From Verrucomicrobiota bacterium (GTDB lineage Bacteria; Verrucomicrobiota; Verrucomicrobiia; Chthoniobacterales; UBA10450), in assembly GCA_003217875.1 (NCBI GenBank), contig QHMR01000134.1:1-35980 (forward strand): a DNA stretch of 35,980 bases, read 5' to 3'. The translations under genes were made by a program, and so were the position numbers. This document shows, in pieces, positions 9,987-35,980 of this stretch; within the stretch, counting starts at the first letter, position 1; each line of letters starts with the position of its first letter. Below the pieces are notes generated by a model that ran no database searches, was not told the origin of the DNA, and was given only the letters and a program-made list of their open reading frames with translations.

Positions 9987-10397
9987 ATGACCAGCTTGAC
10001 CAACTACATCAGCAGATTCCTGTTCGTCCTCGTTCTCGTCTCTGCGGTCTCAATTGGCAGCATCGCCGGTCAACCCGCCGGACTCCTGATCGTGGACAGA
10101 GTGCCGAACTTCGGATGGAACATTGGTGTTCACCTCCAGATCGATGGCAGAGACGTGGCAAACATCGTGCAAGGTCGCCGCTACCACGGTTTTTTGCCCG
10201 CGGGACAGCATGTTTTGACCGTGTCGCCGGTGCCAAACACCGATCTTCGCATCCCCACGTCGATAACGGTGAACGTACAGCCGGGGGGGACGTATGTATT
10301 TAATGCGATGTGGGATTCGAGGATGGTTTTTCTCCGCCCACCAGGGGTGCTGTTGTCCCCCGGAGAGTTGTGGCAACTTCCCAAGTGGCCTCGCTGA
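9987..10397 (+). CDS. Secreted DUF2846/PEGA-like small protein, copy 1
   Basis: The product is 136 residues. A signal peptide (about 1-28, ending IAG) precedes a compact beta-domain with the pattern LLIVDRVPNFGWN, LQIDGRDVANIVQGRRY, PAGQHVLTVSP and VQPGGTYVFNA. This strand-turn pattern (Ile-Asp-Gly, then Pro-Ala-Gly-x-His, then Pro-Gly-x-Thr-Tyr) is shared by PEGA and DUF2846 domains, which are found on exported proteins and are thought to bind or sit at the cell surface. It is paralogous to the gene at 10500-10886, about 100 nt downstream on the same strand. The TATAAT box lies just upstream. Confidence 0.75.
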   Translation: MTSLTNYISRFLFVLVLVSAVSIGSIAGQPAGLLIVDRVPNFGWNIGVHLQIDGRDVANIVQGRRYHGFLPAGQHVLTVSPVPNTDLRIPTSITVNVQPGGTYVFNAMWDSRMVFLRPPGVLLSPGELWQLPKWPR

Positions 10398-10499: not shown

Positions 10500-10886
10500 A
10501 TGAGGCCTAGATACACCTCCGTCACCATACTTTTTCTCATTCTTGTTTTTGTTTGCATAGCCTCGGTCGGAACCGCCGCCGCTCAGCCGGGTGGACGTCT
10601 TATTGTTTTGAGAGCTCCGAATTTTGGATGGAACTTGGCTCTCAATCTTCAGGTCGATGGCAGAACGGTCGCGAATGTTGTGCAGGGACGTCGCTACGAT
10701 CATTTTGTGCCAGCGGGACGTCATGTACTGACGGCCTCGGCCGTGCCAAACTACTACTTCTATCAGCCGACATCGACCGTGCTCAACGTGCGGCCCGGGC
10801 AGACGTACGTATTCACGGCAATATGGCAGGACACGGATCGTGTTGTTCTCGTCCCATCAGCCCTGCCTCCGGGACAGGCATACTAG
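10500..10886 (+). CDS. Secreted DUF2846/PEGA-like small protein, copy 2
   Basis: The product is 128 residues, clearly paralogous to the preceding gene: the blocks APNFGWNLALNLQVDG, TVANVVQGRRY, PAGRHVLTASAVPN and RPGQTYVFTAIW align without gaps. A signal peptide occupies about residues 1-28 (ending AAA). The C-termini differ. The 102-nt spacer holds a weak stem (CCGTC/GACGG around 10410-10430) followed by GGTTTT, possibly a terminator for copy 1. Function is unknown; the tandem arrangement points to local duplication and divergence. Confidence 0.75.
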   Translation: MRPRYTSVTILFLILVFVCIASVGTAAAQPGGRLIVLRAPNFGWNLALNLQVDGRTVANVVQGRRYDHFVPAGRHVLTASAVPNYYFYQPTSTVLNVRPGQTYVFTAIWQDTDRVVLVPSALPPGQAY

Positions 10887-15654: not shown

Positions 15655-15799
15655 AAACACAGTTGGGCCGGTAATTATACGCGATTCGCCAAGAAATGTA
15701 GTACTGCGACGATTGAATTGCGAGCGCACCTTTGAGTAAGCAGGAATTGGACGTGTCCAGTTGAACGTTGCATGTTCAGTGCTGTCCAAATTCAAACCG

Positions 15800-17266
15800 A
15801 TGCGCTTAGCCATTTTGTCCCTGTGCGTTGCATTCAGTACATCGTTCGCAGCGCAACCCGAGGCCGGCCCAACTTCCAGTGTTCCCCCGGCTGCGGCGGA
15901 GGCCGGGAAGGACGTGGTTCACCAACTGAACAATGCTTTTGCCAAAGTCTTCGAAACCGTGGCGCCGAGCGTTGTCATTATCGAGATTTCCAAGAAGAAT
16001 GAAATCAGCGAAAGCTCGCCCTTGGACGACCTGTTCTTTCAAGGACCGCCCGATGAAAACAATCCGCGGCGAAATCCGGGTGGGGTACGTCCGGTCCAAA
16101 GCGAAGGCTCTGGTTTCATCGTGCGGCCCGATGGCTACATCTTCACGAATTTTCACGTAGTGGAAGGCGCGGACAAAATCGACGTGAAGTTGAGAGACGG
16201 ACGGAATTTTCCAGCAACGGTGGTGGGCACTGACGAGAAAACGGATGTCGCTGTCATTAAGATTGACGCGAAAGATTTGCCGGTCGTCCAGCTTGGTGAC
16301 AGTAATGCTGTGCGGGTTGGGCAGTTTGCGTTTGCCATCGGCGCGCCATTCAAGCTCGATTATACATTCACCTATGGAGTGATCAGCGGCAAAGGCCGAA
16401 GCAAATTGTTTCAGACAGGCGGCTACTCCATCTCGGATTATTTGCAGACTGACGCCTCAATTAATCCGGGAAACAGCGGTGGCCCACTTTGCGACATTGA
16501 TGGCAAAGTGATTGGGATGAACACGCTGATCAACGGCATGAACCGGGGGCTGGGCTTTGCAATTCCAATCAATATGGCAAAGGAAATCGGCACAGAGCTG
16601 GTCGCCGGCCACAAGATCACAAGGCCCTGGCTGGGCATTCGCATCGAGACGCTGGGCGACGACCCGACAATCCGGGATTTGTTTAAGGGCGCCGAAAAAG
16701 GAGTGGTGGTCCGTACCATCGAAGCCGATGCGCCTGCTTCCAAAAGTGATTTGCACCCGTTCGACGTGATCACCCAGGTGGATGGAACGCCGATCGAAAC
16801 AGACTCGCAGCTTCAGCACGAGATTTTAAAAAAGAAGGTCGGCCAAAATGTCCAGCTGACTGTTTGGCGCAAAGGTCAGACCATAAAAGTCCCCATCAAA
16901 ACCGGTGAATTGCCGAATGAGATTGCGCGAACATCAAATGCGTTGCCGACCCAGCCGCGGCAACCGTCACAGGAAAATGTCGGCAAATTTGGCTTGCAGG
17001 TGCAGGAATTGACGAAGGAAGTTGCGGAACGTCTGCATCTCCCCGTCGACAAAGGTGTGATCGTAACGGATGTGGAGGACAACAGCATCGCTGCGGCCCA
17101 GGACATCCAGCGCGAAGATGTCATTACGGAAGTGGACGGCAAACCCGTCACGAACGTGCAATCCTTCCGCGAAGCGCTGAACAAAGCCGATCCAAAACGC
17201 GGCGTTCTCCTTTACCTCGATCGCAAAGGCAGCAAAACTTTCGCCGTGCTTAAAGCAGGCGGTTAA
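15800..17266 (+). CDS. htrA: Periplasmic serine protease of the DegP/DegQ (HtrA) family
   Basis: From ATG 15800 the product is 489 residues. A signal peptide (about 1-18, MRLAILSL to SFAAQ) leads to a trypsin-like domain with an intact triad: His119 (TNFHVV), Asp149 (KTDVAVIK) and Ser226 (GNSGGPL). Two PDZ domains follow (about 285-380 and 400-489). This is the standard DegP/DegQ/MucD layout for refolding or degrading misfolded envelope proteins. The open frame extends to a TTG at 15761, but the ATG gives a canonical signal peptide. It is divergent from the ankyrin-transpeptidase gene across 145 nt. It provides an active reference for the inactive homologue at 24468-25523. Confidence 0.95.
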   Translation: MRLAILSLCVAFSTSFAAQPEAGPTSSVPPAAAEAGKDVVHQLNNAFAKVFETVAPSVVIIEISKKNEISESSPLDDLFFQGPPDENNPRRNPGGVRPVQSEGSGFIVRPDGYIFTNFHVVEGADKIDVKLRDGRNFPATVVGTDEKTDVAVIKIDAKDLPVVQLGDSNAVRVGQFAFAIGAPFKLDYTFTYGVISGKGRSKLFQTGGYSISDYLQTDASINPGNSGGPLCDIDGKVIGMNTLINGMNRGLGFAIPINMAKEIGTELVAGHKITRPWLGIRIETLGDDPTIRDLFKGAEKGVVVRTIEADAPASKSDLHPFDVITQVDGTPIETDSQLQHEILKKKVGQNVQLTVWRKGQTIKVPIKTGELPNEIARTSNALPTQPRQPSQENVGKFGLQVQELTKEVAERLHLPVDKGVIVTDVEDNSIAAAQDIQREDVITEVDGKPVTNVQSFREALNKADPKRGVLLYLDRKGSKTFAVLKAGG

Positions 17267-24467: not shown

Positions 24468-25523
24468 TTACGGCGTGCGCGGCACCTCTGAGCTAAGCGA
24501 GAGCGGAATAGCCTGATTCCCCGCAGGTGTGGCGGGGGAGGCAAGCAATGGCCCGGTTCGGCTGGCCGGATGAAGTGTCGCCTGCACATGGAAAGTCAGT
24601 TTTTGATTCCCCCGCATCACAGTGATCGGGACGGTATCGCCTGCAGTGACGAAGAACGAGGCATCGAGCACATCTTCTGGTTGAGTCACTTTTTTCTGAC
24701 CTACTTGTAAGAGAATATCTCCGGATTTGATTCCGGAACGGGCGGCCGGCGTTTCCTCCATGATCTGCGTCATTTCCGCACGTGAACCTTCCACCGGTTG
24801 AGCCGCCTCCGAAACGTTAATCCCAACCCAGCCGTGTCTGGCCTCGCCGAAACGAACAAAATCGCTGCGGATTTTCTCCGCTGCTTCGATCGGCACCGCA
24901 TAACACGCCGACTTGTTTTCGAGACTGCTAACCACGATGCCAACGACTTCCCCTTTCATGTTCAAGAGCGGCGCTCCAGCTTCTCCGCGTTGCGTCGGCA
25001 GATTCAGGCGCACGTGAGTCGTGGAAAAATAACGGCCCAGATATTTTCGATCGAATCCCGCGACCAACCCGAAGCTAGGCGTTTCCGGCAGATCTAAAGG
25101 ATAACCAATCGCCACGACAGGAGCCGCGACTTCCAGTTCTTCGGATTTACCGACCGGCAGCGCTGGAGTGGTCTCTTCGACCTTTAACATCGCGGTCCCA
25201 CTGCGGATATCTGCCAAAAGTTGGCGCGCCGGATATTTCTTACCGCCGAATTCGATGGTGAAATTGCCCGCCTCTCCTCCCACTGTATATGCGGTATAAA
25301 GCGTGCCGGTCGGGTCGATAAAAAATCCGGTGCCGCAAATTTCGCTGTGTTCATCGGCCCCATGAATTTTGACGACCGCCTTGGCGGCTCGCGCAAAGAT
25401 GTCCTTGACGTGCTGGCTTATTGCCGTGGCGGACTGCTCCTGCGCACAGAGCAAACTCCCGCCTGAGAAGAAAATCAGCGCGAGGGCAACTATTCTGTGC
25501 TTAGAATCTGAAAGTGGGCTCAT
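24468..25523 (-). CDS. Catalytically dead HtrA-like protein (pseudoprotease) with PDZ domain
   Basis: The product is 351 residues. It has a signal peptide (about 10-27), a trypsin-like HtrA domain (about 35-225), one PDZ domain (about 230-315, QIMEETPAARSGIKSGDILLQVG) and a Pro/Ser-rich tail. Aligned with the active HtrA at 15800, all three catalytic positions are replaced: His to Thr80 (TAYTVGG for TNFHVVEG), Asp to Gly109 (RSGTAML for KTDVAVI), and Ser to Ala182 (GEAGAP for GNSGGP). The fold-defining parts (GTGFFIDPTG, APLLNMKGEVVGIV) remain, so the gene is intact but the protein should be inactive as a protease. Its start overlaps the putative anti-sigma gene by 23 nt. A binding or sensing role in the periplasm is inferred. 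Confidence 0.9.
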   Translation of the reverse strand: MSPLSDSKHRIVALALIFFSGGSLLCAQEQSATAISQHVKDIFARAAKAVVKIHGADEHSEICGTGFFIDPTGTLYTAYTVGGEAGNFTIEFGGKKYPARQLLADIRSGTAMLKVEETTPALPVGKSEELEVAAPVVAIGYPLDLPETPSFGLVAGFDRKYLGRYFSTTHVRLNLPTQRGEAGAPLLNMKGEVVGIVVSSLENKSACYAVPIEAAEKIRSDFVRFGEARHGWVGINVSEAAQPVEGSRAEMTQIMEETPAARSGIKSGDILLQVGQKKVTQPEDVLDASFFVTAGDTVPITVMRGNQKLTFHVQATLHPASRTGPLLASPATPAGNQAIPLSLSSEVPRTP

Positions 25524-25989
25524 AACTCACGGGGACGCTATCGAGCACGTAACGCGGAGGGGCGGCTCGGTGAGTCTGGGCGCTTTCATGAAAACTGCGA
25601 ACCGGCTGCGTCCTGAGAATCTGTGTGGCGACCGGAGATGCGAGGCTCCATTCTCCTTCGGTATTCGCCGGCACCGATATGGCCGGCGGGCTCTGGAGAG
25701 CGACACGAGCCGTCTCGGGCTGCTGATAAATCTTCACTGAAATTATGGCGGCACAAAGCAGGACAGCCGTGACGGCAGCGGGATAGGAGGTTAAAGAACG
25801 AACATCCAGTTGCAACATGAAGTTGTGAGCGCGTTCCAGGCAAATGCGCCAAAGCGGCTGGCGAAGCAATTCATCACGCTGCCGGCGATGAAATTCATGC
25901 AGGAAATTCTCAAAGTAGGCAGGCGGCGGCTGCTCGTAACGCTTCAACCGAAGCAGTCTCGCGATTTCGCTATCGTTAAATTCCTCCAT
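25501..25989 (-). CDS. Putative one-TM anti-sigma factor
   Basis: The product is 162 residues with a charged cytoplasmic-type N-terminal region (1-66, with LLRLKRYEQPPPAYFENFLHEFHRRQRDELL), one hydrophobic helix (about 68-86), and a Pro/Ser/Thr-rich extracytoplasmic tail. The gene lies 12 nt downstream of an ECF sigma gene and overlaps the next, so sigma-anti-sigma pairing is inferred from position and topology. The zinc-binding HxxxCxxC motif of ZAS anti-sigma factors is absent, and no family match is certain. Confidence 0.65.
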   Translation of the reverse strand: MEEFNDSEIARLLRLKRYEQPPPAYFENFLHEFHRRQRDELLRQPLWRICLERAHNFMLQLDVRSLTSYPAAVTAVLLCAAIISVKIYQQPETARVALQSPPAISVPANTEGEWSLASPVATQILRTQPVRSFHESAQTHRAAPPRYVLDSVPVSYEPTFRF

Positions 25990-26001
25990 TTTCAGTGCCG
26001 G

Positions 26002-26688
26002 TTAAGAAACAGGATTTTTCCGAAATTCATCCAGATAATTTTGCAATTGTCGATTCGCGTAGAAGAGCCTGGAACGTACTGTTCCTTCTGAAACTCGCAA
26101 GATTTTACTGATCTCTGCGTGGGGCATCCCTTGAATATGAAACATGGTGACCACGGCTCTGTGTTCATCAGACAATTTCATCATGGCCTCGTTCAATCTT
26201 CGCTGCAGCTCCGAAAGATCAGCTTCTCGTACTGGACTACTCGTTGCCGTTAGTTCCAGGAATTCCTTGTCGTTGTGAATGCTCGCGTCCACGTCATCCA
26301 GACTCAGTTGAAATCGGCGGCCGCGCTTCTTGAGAAAATTCAGGGTCATATTTACCGCGATCGAATGAATCCAGGTGTAAAAAGACGATTTGCCGCGGAA
26401 TCCGCGGATTGCTTTGTACGCTTTGGCAAAGATATCCTGCAAAAGATCGTTCGTATCCTCGTGGTTCGAGGTCATGTTGTACACCAGGCCGTAGAGACGC
26501 GGCGTGTATTTGATGACTAGTTCGTCAAAAGCGCTGGCATCGCCCGACTGCGTGCGCTTGACCAACTCCTGATCTGGGTCGGTTCTCGGCTGGTCCATCG
26601 CGTCGCGCTTAGATTTAGCACGAGCCTCAAGACCCGACGACAACAAATCAGAGATCCGGCGAGCAGGTAATGCGACTGAGGCATTCAT
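26002..26688 (-). CDS. ECF-type RNA polymerase sigma factor
   Basis: The product is 228 residues. Sigma region 2 spans about 46-115: FDELVIKYTPRLYGLVYNMTSN, then EDTNDLLQDIFAKAYKAIRGFRGKSSFYTWIHSIAVNMTLNFLKK, the canonical region 2.2-2.4 pattern. Region 4 spans about 155-215: LNEAMMKLSDEHRAVVTMFHIQGMPHAEISKILRVSEGTVRSRLFYANRQLQNYL. Region 3 is absent, as in all ECF (group 4) sigma factors, and RpoE-like members respond to envelope stress. The N-terminal 30 residues are an unusual extension; an ATG at codon 31 (26598) is an equally good start. It is followed by the putative anti-sigma gene after 12 nt. Confidence 0.95.
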   Translation of the reverse strand: MNASVALPARRISDLLSSGLEARAKSKRDAMDQPRTDPDQELVKRTQSGDASAFDELVIKYTPRLYGLVYNMTSNHEDTNDLLQDIFAKAYKAIRGFRGKSSFYTWIHSIAVNMTLNFLKKRGRRFQLSLDDVDASIHNDKEFLELTATSSPVREADLSELQRRLNEAMMKLSDEHRAVVTMFHIQGMPHAEISKILRVSEGTVRSRLFYANRQLQNYLDEFRKNPVS

Positions 26689-26714: not shown

Positions 26715-27413
26715 TCAGCGCCGGTCGCGCAGGGAAAGCAGCCAGAGCAAGTTACCCAGCGCAGCGATAAATGCCGCAACGTAAGTGAGCGCGGCCGCGT
26801 TCAAGACGCTGTTCACACCCGCAGCTTCCTGTCCTGGCTGAACGATTCCCATTTCACGCAAAATAATTTTCGCTCGGTGCGAAGCATCGAATTCCACCGG
26901 TAACGTAATCAATTGGAAAACGACCAGGACCAGGTAGCAGTAAATGCCGAGTGTAATCAGACCGGTGATCCCAAAGAAAAGGCCGCCGATGATGATGAAC
27001 GGCAGCAGTTGCGACGCGATCATCGTCACGGGCACGATCGCCATTCGCGCTTTCAGCGGCGCGTACGCCCTGGCGTGTTGAATGGCGTGACCGGTCTCGT
27101 GCGCAGCTATCCCCAGCGCTGCTACCGAAGGAGTATGATAAACATTACTCGACAGGTGCAGTTTCTTATCCCTCGGATCGTAATGGTCTCCGAGAAAATC
27201 ATTAGTTTCCACAACCTCCACATCACGTATTTGCGCCGCCTGCAGAATTTCTTGCGCGCACTCGGCGCCTGTGATGTTGGAGCTTGCTCGCACCTCGCCC
27301 CATTTCCGGAACGCGCTGGTTACACGAATCTGCGCCCAAATTCCCAGAATCAACGGAACGCCGATGTAGAGCAGCCAGTGAGATCCAAGACCGAAACCGT
27401 AGGGATAAAACAT
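26715..27413 (-). CDS. Membrane-bound zinc metallopeptidase (YugP/DUF232 type)
   Basis: The product is 232 residues. An N-terminal membrane segment (about 10-28) precedes the zinc motif HETGH (about 104-108), and two to three C-terminal helices follow (about 130-175 and 205-225). The segment LPVEFDASHRAK after the second helix is the conserved third block of the family, probably carrying the third ligand. The family (Zn_peptidase_2) is widespread and its substrates are not defined. Its stop lies 26 nt upstream of the ECF sigma gene on the same strand, so it may be the first gene of the sigma operon. Confidence 0.92.
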   Translation of the reverse strand: MFYPYGFGLGSHWLLYIGVPLILGIWAQIRVTSAFRKWGEVRASSNITGAECAQEILQAAQIRDVEVVETNDFLGDHYDPRDKKLHLSSNVYHTPSVAALGIAAHETGHAIQHARAYAPLKARMAIVPVTMIASQLLPFIIIGGLFFGITGLITLGIYCYLVLVVFQLITLPVEFDASHRAKIILREMGIVQPGQEAAGVNSVLNAAALTYVAAFIAALGNLLWLLSLRDRR

Positions 27414-34881: not shown

Positions 34882-35868
34882 TCAATCCAGCGGGCTTTTC
34901 ACGCCAACGCCCGGTCGATTCAACACGTGCGTGTAAATCATCGTCGTGCTCACGTCCTTATGTCCAAGCAACTCCTGCACCGTGCGAATATCATAGCCGC
35001 GCGTCAACAAATGCGTCGCGAAAGAATGCCGGAGGCCGTGGCAGTTCGCGCGCTTCACAATTCCCGCGGCATCGACTGCCCTTTTCAATGTAGTTTGCAA
35101 AATTCCTTCCGCGGTGTGGTGCCGTTGTTTCGCGCCCGTTCGCGGATCGATGGAAATGCGCGACGAAGGAAAAACATATTGCCAGGCCCATGCGCGTGCG
35201 GCGCTCGGGATCTTTCGACTTAACGCAAATGGAAGATGAACCCGGCCGAACCCATCTTCTACATCCTGCTCGTGTTGCGCCTTCACGCGCACGAGATGCC
35301 GGCGCAGTGGTTCAGACAGATTTAAGGGCAACATGGTGATGCGGTCTTTGCCGCCTTTCGCGTCGCGCACTGTTATCTGCGCGAGCTCGAAATCGACATC
35401 CTTGACCCGCAATCGCACGCACTCCATCAAGCGCAGGCCACTGCCGTAAAGCAACCCAGCCATCAGTTTGGGCACGCCATGCAGGTGCGCAAAGATACGT
35501 TTCACTTCCATGCGCGAGAGGACTACCGGAAGTTTCGGCGGCTTCTTCGCCCGCTCGACTTTCTCCAGCCAACCGATCTCGTGCTTAAGCACTTCTTTGT
35601 AGAGAAACAGTAATGCGCTCAGCGCCTGGTTTTGAGTAGAGGGCGCGACGTCGCGATCGCGGGCCAGATGAGTAAGGAACCGCGCGACTTCTTCTTCTGC
35701 CATTTCGGCTGGATGCCGTTTGTTGTGGTAGATAATGAACCGCTTGATCCAGTCGATATAAGCCTGCTCGGTGCGGATGGAGTAATGCTTGCGCCGGATG
35801 ACGTCTCGCACCTGATCGAGCAGTTTGGGTTTGTTTGACGCCGCCGGACTTGTTATCCTCTCAGCCAT
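34882..35868 (-). CDS. intI: Integron-type integrase (IntI-like tyrosine recombinase)
   Basis: From ATG 35868 the product is 328 residues. The N-terminal SAM-like DNA-binding domain (about 15-95, [30 protein letters not shown]) precedes the catalytic domain. All tyrosine-recombinase residues are present: Arg in [12 protein letters not shown], Lys in [18 protein letters not shown] and the nucleophile Tyr in TMIYTHV. The segment [28 protein letters not shown] is the extra I2-helix patch found only in integron integrases, and the C-terminal GVKSPLD is likewise typical. It would recombine attI and attC sites to move gene cassettes. The frame is open to 35931, but MAERITS at 35868 is a better N-terminus. 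No attC array is visible. Confidence 0.92.
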
Positions 35869-35920
35869 GGCAACGATTTTGTCCCCGCGGTTCCTAAAAT
35901 CAAGCCGGATTAGACCTCTT

Positions 35921-35980
35921 ATGAGCCACATTGATGATCTTGCCGCAGGCGTAAATGAAATGCAGCGCGCGGAGGCGCAA
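35921..35980 (+). CDS. Start of a divergent ORF, cut by the window edge
   Basis: An ATG at 35921 opens a frame of 20 codons without a stop up to the end of the window ([20 protein letters not shown]). It is divergent from the integrase gene across 52 nt. Because cassette arrays usually lie beyond the intI start, it may be a first cassette or an unrelated neighbour. Too short to identify. Confidence 0.4.

Follow-up and report, generated by a model that had tools for sequence, protein, structure and literature searches.

Genes and features at the locus

The window, i.e. the whole stretch of 35,980 nucleotides of Verrucomicrobiota DNA analyzed here, carries three adjacent genes on the minus strand (24468-26688). 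They encode, in this order, an ECF sigma factor, a protein with one transmembrane (TM) helix, P0002, and an HtrA homologue without catalytic residues, referred to below as pseudo-HtrA (table 1). The preliminary description of this DNA had given the same order, sigma factor, one-TM protein and HtrA-like protein, and it was confirmed. The genome is near Candidatus Udaeobacter, with CATPBS010000214.1 (91% identity) as the best named relative.

Table 1. Features of the locus and of the proteins compared.
Feature	Position	Strand	Description
Active HtrA paralogue	15761..17266	+	His, Asp and Ser all present; comparison protein, outside the operon
Pseudo-HtrA	24468..25523	-	351 aa ORF; Trypsin_2 and PDZ_2
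Pseudo-HtrA, putative signal peptide	about residues 1-27		read by eye
Pseudo-HtrA, predicted inactive trypsin-like domain	about residues 50-226		T80/G109/A182 replace H/D/S
Pseudo-HtrA, single PDZ domain	about residues 229-316		loop R229-H-G-W-V-G-I235
P0002, predicted one-TM anti-sigma factor, 162 aa	25501..25989	-	relatives with zf-HC2; alignments
P0002, predicted cytoplasmic helices	about residues 6-60		contain LLRLKRYEQPPPxYFxxFLxEFHRRQR
P0002, predicted TM helix	about residues 69-89		followed by disordered periplasmic region
P0002, conserved C-terminal tail			PRYVLDSVPVSYEPTFRF-COOH
Codons of the conserved tail (last 18 residues of P0002)	25504..25557	-	last part overlaps start of pseudo-HtrA gene
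ECF sigma factor, RpoE-like	26002..26688	-	Sigma70_r2 1.3e-16; TIGR02937 3e-33
Zn_peptidase_2 (YugP-like) gene	26715..27413	-	26 nt upstream of sigma gene

The sigma factor matched PF04542, PF08281 and TIGR02937, all above their cut-offs, and contains only Sigma-70 regions 2 and 4, the composition of ECF sigma factors. It also matched the RpoE model TIGR02939 (1e-39), yet below the cut-off of this model. The genes for the one-TM protein and pseudo-HtrA share 23 nt, and this overlap suggests translational coupling. The order of the three genes was retained in nearly all loci with enough upstream DNA, the exceptions being L140, which had no sigma factor match, and L261, which had neither a sigma factor nor a one-TM protein match. 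In the search upstream of the sigma gene, no clear motif that might represent an autoregulatory ECF promoter rose above the shuffled sequences, and the enriched words fell in the coding start of the sigma gene. The part of this gene that encodes an N-terminal extension (26600-26688, minus strand; RRISDLLSSGLEARAKSK) appears to be conserved among relatives at the DNA level.

Outside its own family the YugP-like gene adjoins the sigma gene in just a few relatives, among them some members of another family, and for this reason was not counted as a fourth member of the operon; where present, it may be co-transcribed. The M24 peptidase and ABC transporter genes in the neighbourhood were also kept only within the family and in some relatives. 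Elsewhere in the window, an integron integrase is encoded at the end (34882-35931, minus strand; TIGR02249, 3e-140), and two adjacent small secreted paralogues with no assigned function (9987-10397 and 10500-10886, plus strand) share the pattern NFGWN...DGR.VANVVQGRRY.

Loss of the catalytic triad in pseudo-HtrA

By descent and fold, pseudo-HtrA is a member of the HtrA family, with a trypsin-like domain followed by a PDZ domain. Its sequence matched Pfam Trypsin_2 (2.4e-16) and PDZ_2 (3.9e-11), the Do/HtrA model TIGR02037 (1.3e-39, under the cut-off of the model), and the structures of DegP, DegQ and DegS. An HtrA fold was predicted by AlphaFold2 (pLDDT 86, pTM 0.81), and the top Foldseek match of this model was Legionella DegQ (4ynn, TM 0.75). 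The view of the preliminary description that fold and PDZ domain are kept is borne out by these matches. Its assignment of the replaced residues was also exact, since alignment with the active HtrA of the window placed T80, G109 and A182 in the three triad columns.

Pseudo-HtrA lacks the His-Asp-Ser triad that defines the active enzymes, and the loss of this triad is the reason for keeping it apart from the membrane-anchored site-1 proteases of the DegS type. Its N-terminus, moreover, reads by eye as a cleavable signal peptide. The protein is thus predicted to be secreted to the periplasm and, without the cutting residues, putatively no longer cuts.

The replacements were conserved across related genomes. 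Position 109 was Gly in all 109 distinct orthologues from Chthoniobacterales, while position 80 was His in just two of them and position 182 was Ser in just one. For 156 operon members, a count that includes a few duplicate loci, no triad residue was left in 149, one was kept in seven and two in none; the Asp of the triad was never Asp. Twelve further operon members were also dead, and no orthologue in this operon position that keeps the triad was seen in either set. All three residues were present in 23 of 23 HtrAs encoded outside the operon. Eight matches from outside the class had no sigma factor neighbour, and these carried His-Asp-Ser (seven) or His-Glu-Ser (one).

Altogether, about 160 operon members were found in Chthoniobacterales, in 22 further families of the class and, beyond the class, in a single genome (G519, locus L314), and each region read from the 22 families contained a dead copy. 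Pseudo-HtrA was present in 76 of 83 genomes of the same family (30 of the 30 good ones) and in 174 of 213 genomes of the order (97 of the 112 good ones), and a class-wide profile search, read at E up to 1e-60, detected members in 127 of 385 genomes.

In comparison with close relatives the dN/dS of pseudo-HtrA was 0.07-0.09, indicating purifying selection. A tree with some long branches was computed by a quick method from 44 dead and 22 active HtrAs, and a single branch in it divided the two groups (SH-aLRT 100). These comparisons indicate that the loss of the triad is ancient and under selection. The conserved triad loss together with the dN/dS values ruled out a sequencing error or a decaying pseudogene. 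The operon was also found on a contig labelled Acidobacteriales (L056, MNGW01000145.1), in which the anti-sigma and sigma factors are about 93% identical to those of the window; this contig is probably mis-binned Verrucomicrobiota.

The one-TM protein and its C-terminal tail

P0002 itself had no family match among the Pfam and TIGR models. The one-TM protein is nevertheless assigned as an anti-sigma factor because its same-position relatives carry zf-HC2, and for P0002 this identity is taken from the relatives. The zf-HC2 motif (HxxxCxxC) was above the Pfam cut-off in the counterparts at L265, L275 and L278, and it opens the counterparts from other families of the class, so that in these relatives an N-terminal domain of the class I type is encoded beside an ECF sigma gene. 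The preliminary description had proposed an anti-sigma role for this protein, and the relatives support it.

In class I anti-sigma factors, helix 4 binds sigma region 2 and comes after a bundle of three helices, which may or may not contain Hx3Cx2C (PMC7406223). The class-wide alignment puts the zinc module ahead of the segment LKRYExP..YF..FL.EFHRR, which P0002 shares and which lies at the place of helix 4 in class I anti-sigma factors (PMC7406223). P0002 has kept this adjoining helix segment, and the zinc motif is absent. The Udaeobacter protein seems to retain just the latter part (helix 4 portion) of the class I domain. A paralogue of P0002, sought as a control, was not found in its own genome.

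The AlphaFold2 model of P0002, which shows helices at 6-60, a TM helix at 69-89 and a disordered periplasmic part, was of low confidence (mean pLDDT 59.6, with residues 94-144 below 50), and the periplasmic stretch of the anti-sigma factors was variable and disordered with the exception of the C-terminus. There, the order-level consensus was PRYVLDxxPVSYExxFxF, and the final residue was the sole invariant column in the class-wide alignment. Phe was the last residue in 151 and Tyr in five of 158 genomes (together 156 of 158), counted with L018 trimmed after SFRF, where its stop codon is lost. The L018 gene, in which about 30 residues are added behind ...SYEPSFRF, may contain an error or be a real variant. 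Among the first 146 genomes, 142 had the final Phe, against 1.8% of 835 long ORFs of the same DNA, and a hydrophobic-x-Phe ending was present in 128 against 0.8%. Complete zf-HC2 proteins encoded outside the operon mostly ended otherwise, while both operon proteins in this small sample ended in Phe, as did one soluble non-operon protein of 87 aa.

In many loci the tail codons run into the start of the next gene. Loci in which the downstream frame opens only after the stop, making an overlap impossible, were therefore examined. Twelve of 13 still ended in Phe. Both Phe codons were in use at the final position (TTC 57, TTT 49). For the final Phe, an origin as a by-product of the overlapping start codon was rejected on these grounds; the Tyr-Glu part of the tail may be such a by-product.

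Proposed tail recognition and a candidate envelope-stress module

Ligands of HtrA PDZ domains have hydrophobic residues at positions 0 and -2, e.g. WVF or YQF (PMC8545111). Most Omp85 proteins of the genomes studied end in NVGYQF, FGFAF/FSFGFAF or similar, and by sequence the anti-sigma factor likewise ends in the manner of an outer-membrane protein. In the dead HtrAs the PDZ loop R-x-G-W-x-G was retained (W232 99%, G234 100%). Because the tail is of the HtrA-PDZ ligand type and the operon partner has a PDZ domain that is probably of the matching kind, we strongly infer that the PDZ domain of the dead HtrA binds the anti-sigma tail, and regard this pairing as quite likely. In 21 of the 158 tails, position -2 holds no large hydrophobic residue, which counts against the pairing, as does the altered PDZ loop at L331 and L333, whose partners still end in Phe. 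A covariation analysis of tail against PDZ columns, at an effective number of about 79 sequences, gave no decisive signal. The tail could instead be the ligand of another PDZ protein, such as an RseP-type protease, the active HtrA or a tail-specific protease.

We consider it rather probable that the three genes form an envelope-stress module, in which an ECF sigma factor is joined by a membrane anti-sigma factor and by a pseudoprotease that derives from HtrA and is secreted. The PDZ domain would dock the periplasmic C-terminus of the anti-sigma factor, a mimic of outer-membrane proteins (hydrophobic-x-Phe-COOH) on a disordered tether. In unstressed cells the complex of pseudo-HtrA and tail would shield the anti-sigma factor in the way that RseB does for RseA; this polarity is proposed tentatively. 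Unassembled outer-membrane proteins would expose x-Phe C-termini and compete for the PDZ groove, a step to which we give about an even chance. The freed anti-sigma factor would then be cut by an active HtrA or a tail-specific protease and afterwards by an M50 site-2 protease, with release of the sigma factor; alternatively, release could follow from a change in shape of the anti-sigma factor. Other proteases could carry out this cleavage: Pfam Peptidase_M50 was matched in 16 of 16 genomes searched, and active HtrAs occur in the same genomes. In the genome of the window, the RseP model TIGR00054 gave no more than a PDZ match. The preliminary description had suggested that the dead protease may be a sensor or scaffold that binds protein termini and signals to the anti-sigma factor. 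This idea gains support from the PDZ-ligand-like anti-sigma tail. Competition for a held tail is likely to be a better account than a simple scaffold.

HtrA proteins double as chaperones, and degP belongs to sigma-E regulons. Pseudo-HtrA might accordingly be an effector, a sigma-dependent periplasmic chaperone for unfolded outer-membrane proteins which is placed in the operon for co-expression, with the tail being read by another PDZ protease (an active HtrA or an RseP-like protein). M50 proteases and active HtrAs are encoded in the same genomes, but the dead HtrA and the x-Phe tail co-occur in the three-gene unit throughout the class while other neighbours vary, and most zf-HC2 proteins outside the unit have no x-Phe ending, although this sample was small. 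A chaperone role in place of tail binding is therefore considered unlikely. A further possibility is that pseudo-HtrA acts as a positive co-factor, its PDZ domain, loaded with outer-membrane-protein termini, handing the anti-sigma factor over to an active protease. There is a precedent in MamO, a dead HtrA on which processing by the active protease MamE, also an HtrA, depends (PMC4794232), and the window also encodes an active HtrA. Taken alone, such a co-factor would leave the PDZ-ligand-like C-terminus of the anti-sigma factor unexplained, and we hold it to be more doubtful still than the chaperone.

It is very improbable that pseudo-HtrA has remained an enzyme by means of a relocated or otherwise unusual catalytic site. 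T168, H170, R172 and C207 are well conserved in the family, but the loop at 180-185 keeps the pattern GxxGxP, its nucleophile position being taken by Ala, Gly, Ile or Val, and there is no strictly conserved set of His, Ser and Asp in the class. H170 (88%), the most conserved His, lacks strictly conserved partners that could serve as nucleophile and acid. At the level of sequence conservation, a relocated triad is thus disfavoured.

In DegS and AlgW, the PDZ domain reads the C-termini of outer-membrane proteins, and the response is cleavage of the anti-sigma factor. The proposed module resembles the DegS-RseA-RseB/RpoE and AlgW-MucA-MucB systems in having an RpoE-like ECF sigma factor, a one-TM anti-sigma factor and a periplasmic protein of the HtrA type whose PDZ domain is presumably of the x-Phe-reading kind, but differs from both in that the HtrA-type protein is catalytically dead and secreted. 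Unlike them, it contains no RseB-like gene among its conserved members, and it is the anti-sigma factor itself that bears the ligand-like C-terminus. As in algU-mucABCD, the sigma factor, the anti-sigma factor and the HtrA homologue are encoded in a single operon; MucD, however, is an active protease, whereas every member here has lost the triad, and equivalents of mucB and mucC are lacking. RseB and MucB offer a parallel to the proposed shielding of a membrane anti-sigma factor by a periplasmic partner until a ligand frees it, although they are lipid-binding proteins and the partner here is a trypsin-PDZ protein. Like the magnetosome pseudoprotease MamO, pseudo-HtrA is an HtrA-type protein presumed to be without proteolysis and maintained by selection, but MamO is a metal-binding protein of magnetosomes and is encoded outside any sigma operon.

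Dead HtrAs (MamO) and sigma operons with active HtrAs (mucD) are already known. No paper linking a dead HtrA to an anti-sigma factor was found in a search of openly accessible published papers, and in our judgement the module is a novel form of ECF envelope-stress sensing. Verrucomicrobiota are abundant, poorly studied soil bacteria, and the module is a candidate for the sensing step of a sigma-E-like response in this group. It may be, with somewhat less than even chances, that throughout the class the dead HtrA senses unassembled outer-membrane proteins by their competition with a built-in anti-sigma tail, the PDZ domain on a protease fold serving purely as a receptor. If this is true, a pseudoprotease has become an envelope-stress receptor, and a PDZ reader has persisted across an entire bacterial class on a protease that is dead.

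Two loci of one family (L331 and L333, family f24) have GLLPI or GVLPI in the PDZ loop and not GWxG, and their partner still ends in Phe. These loci represent a natural test of the PDZ-tail idea.
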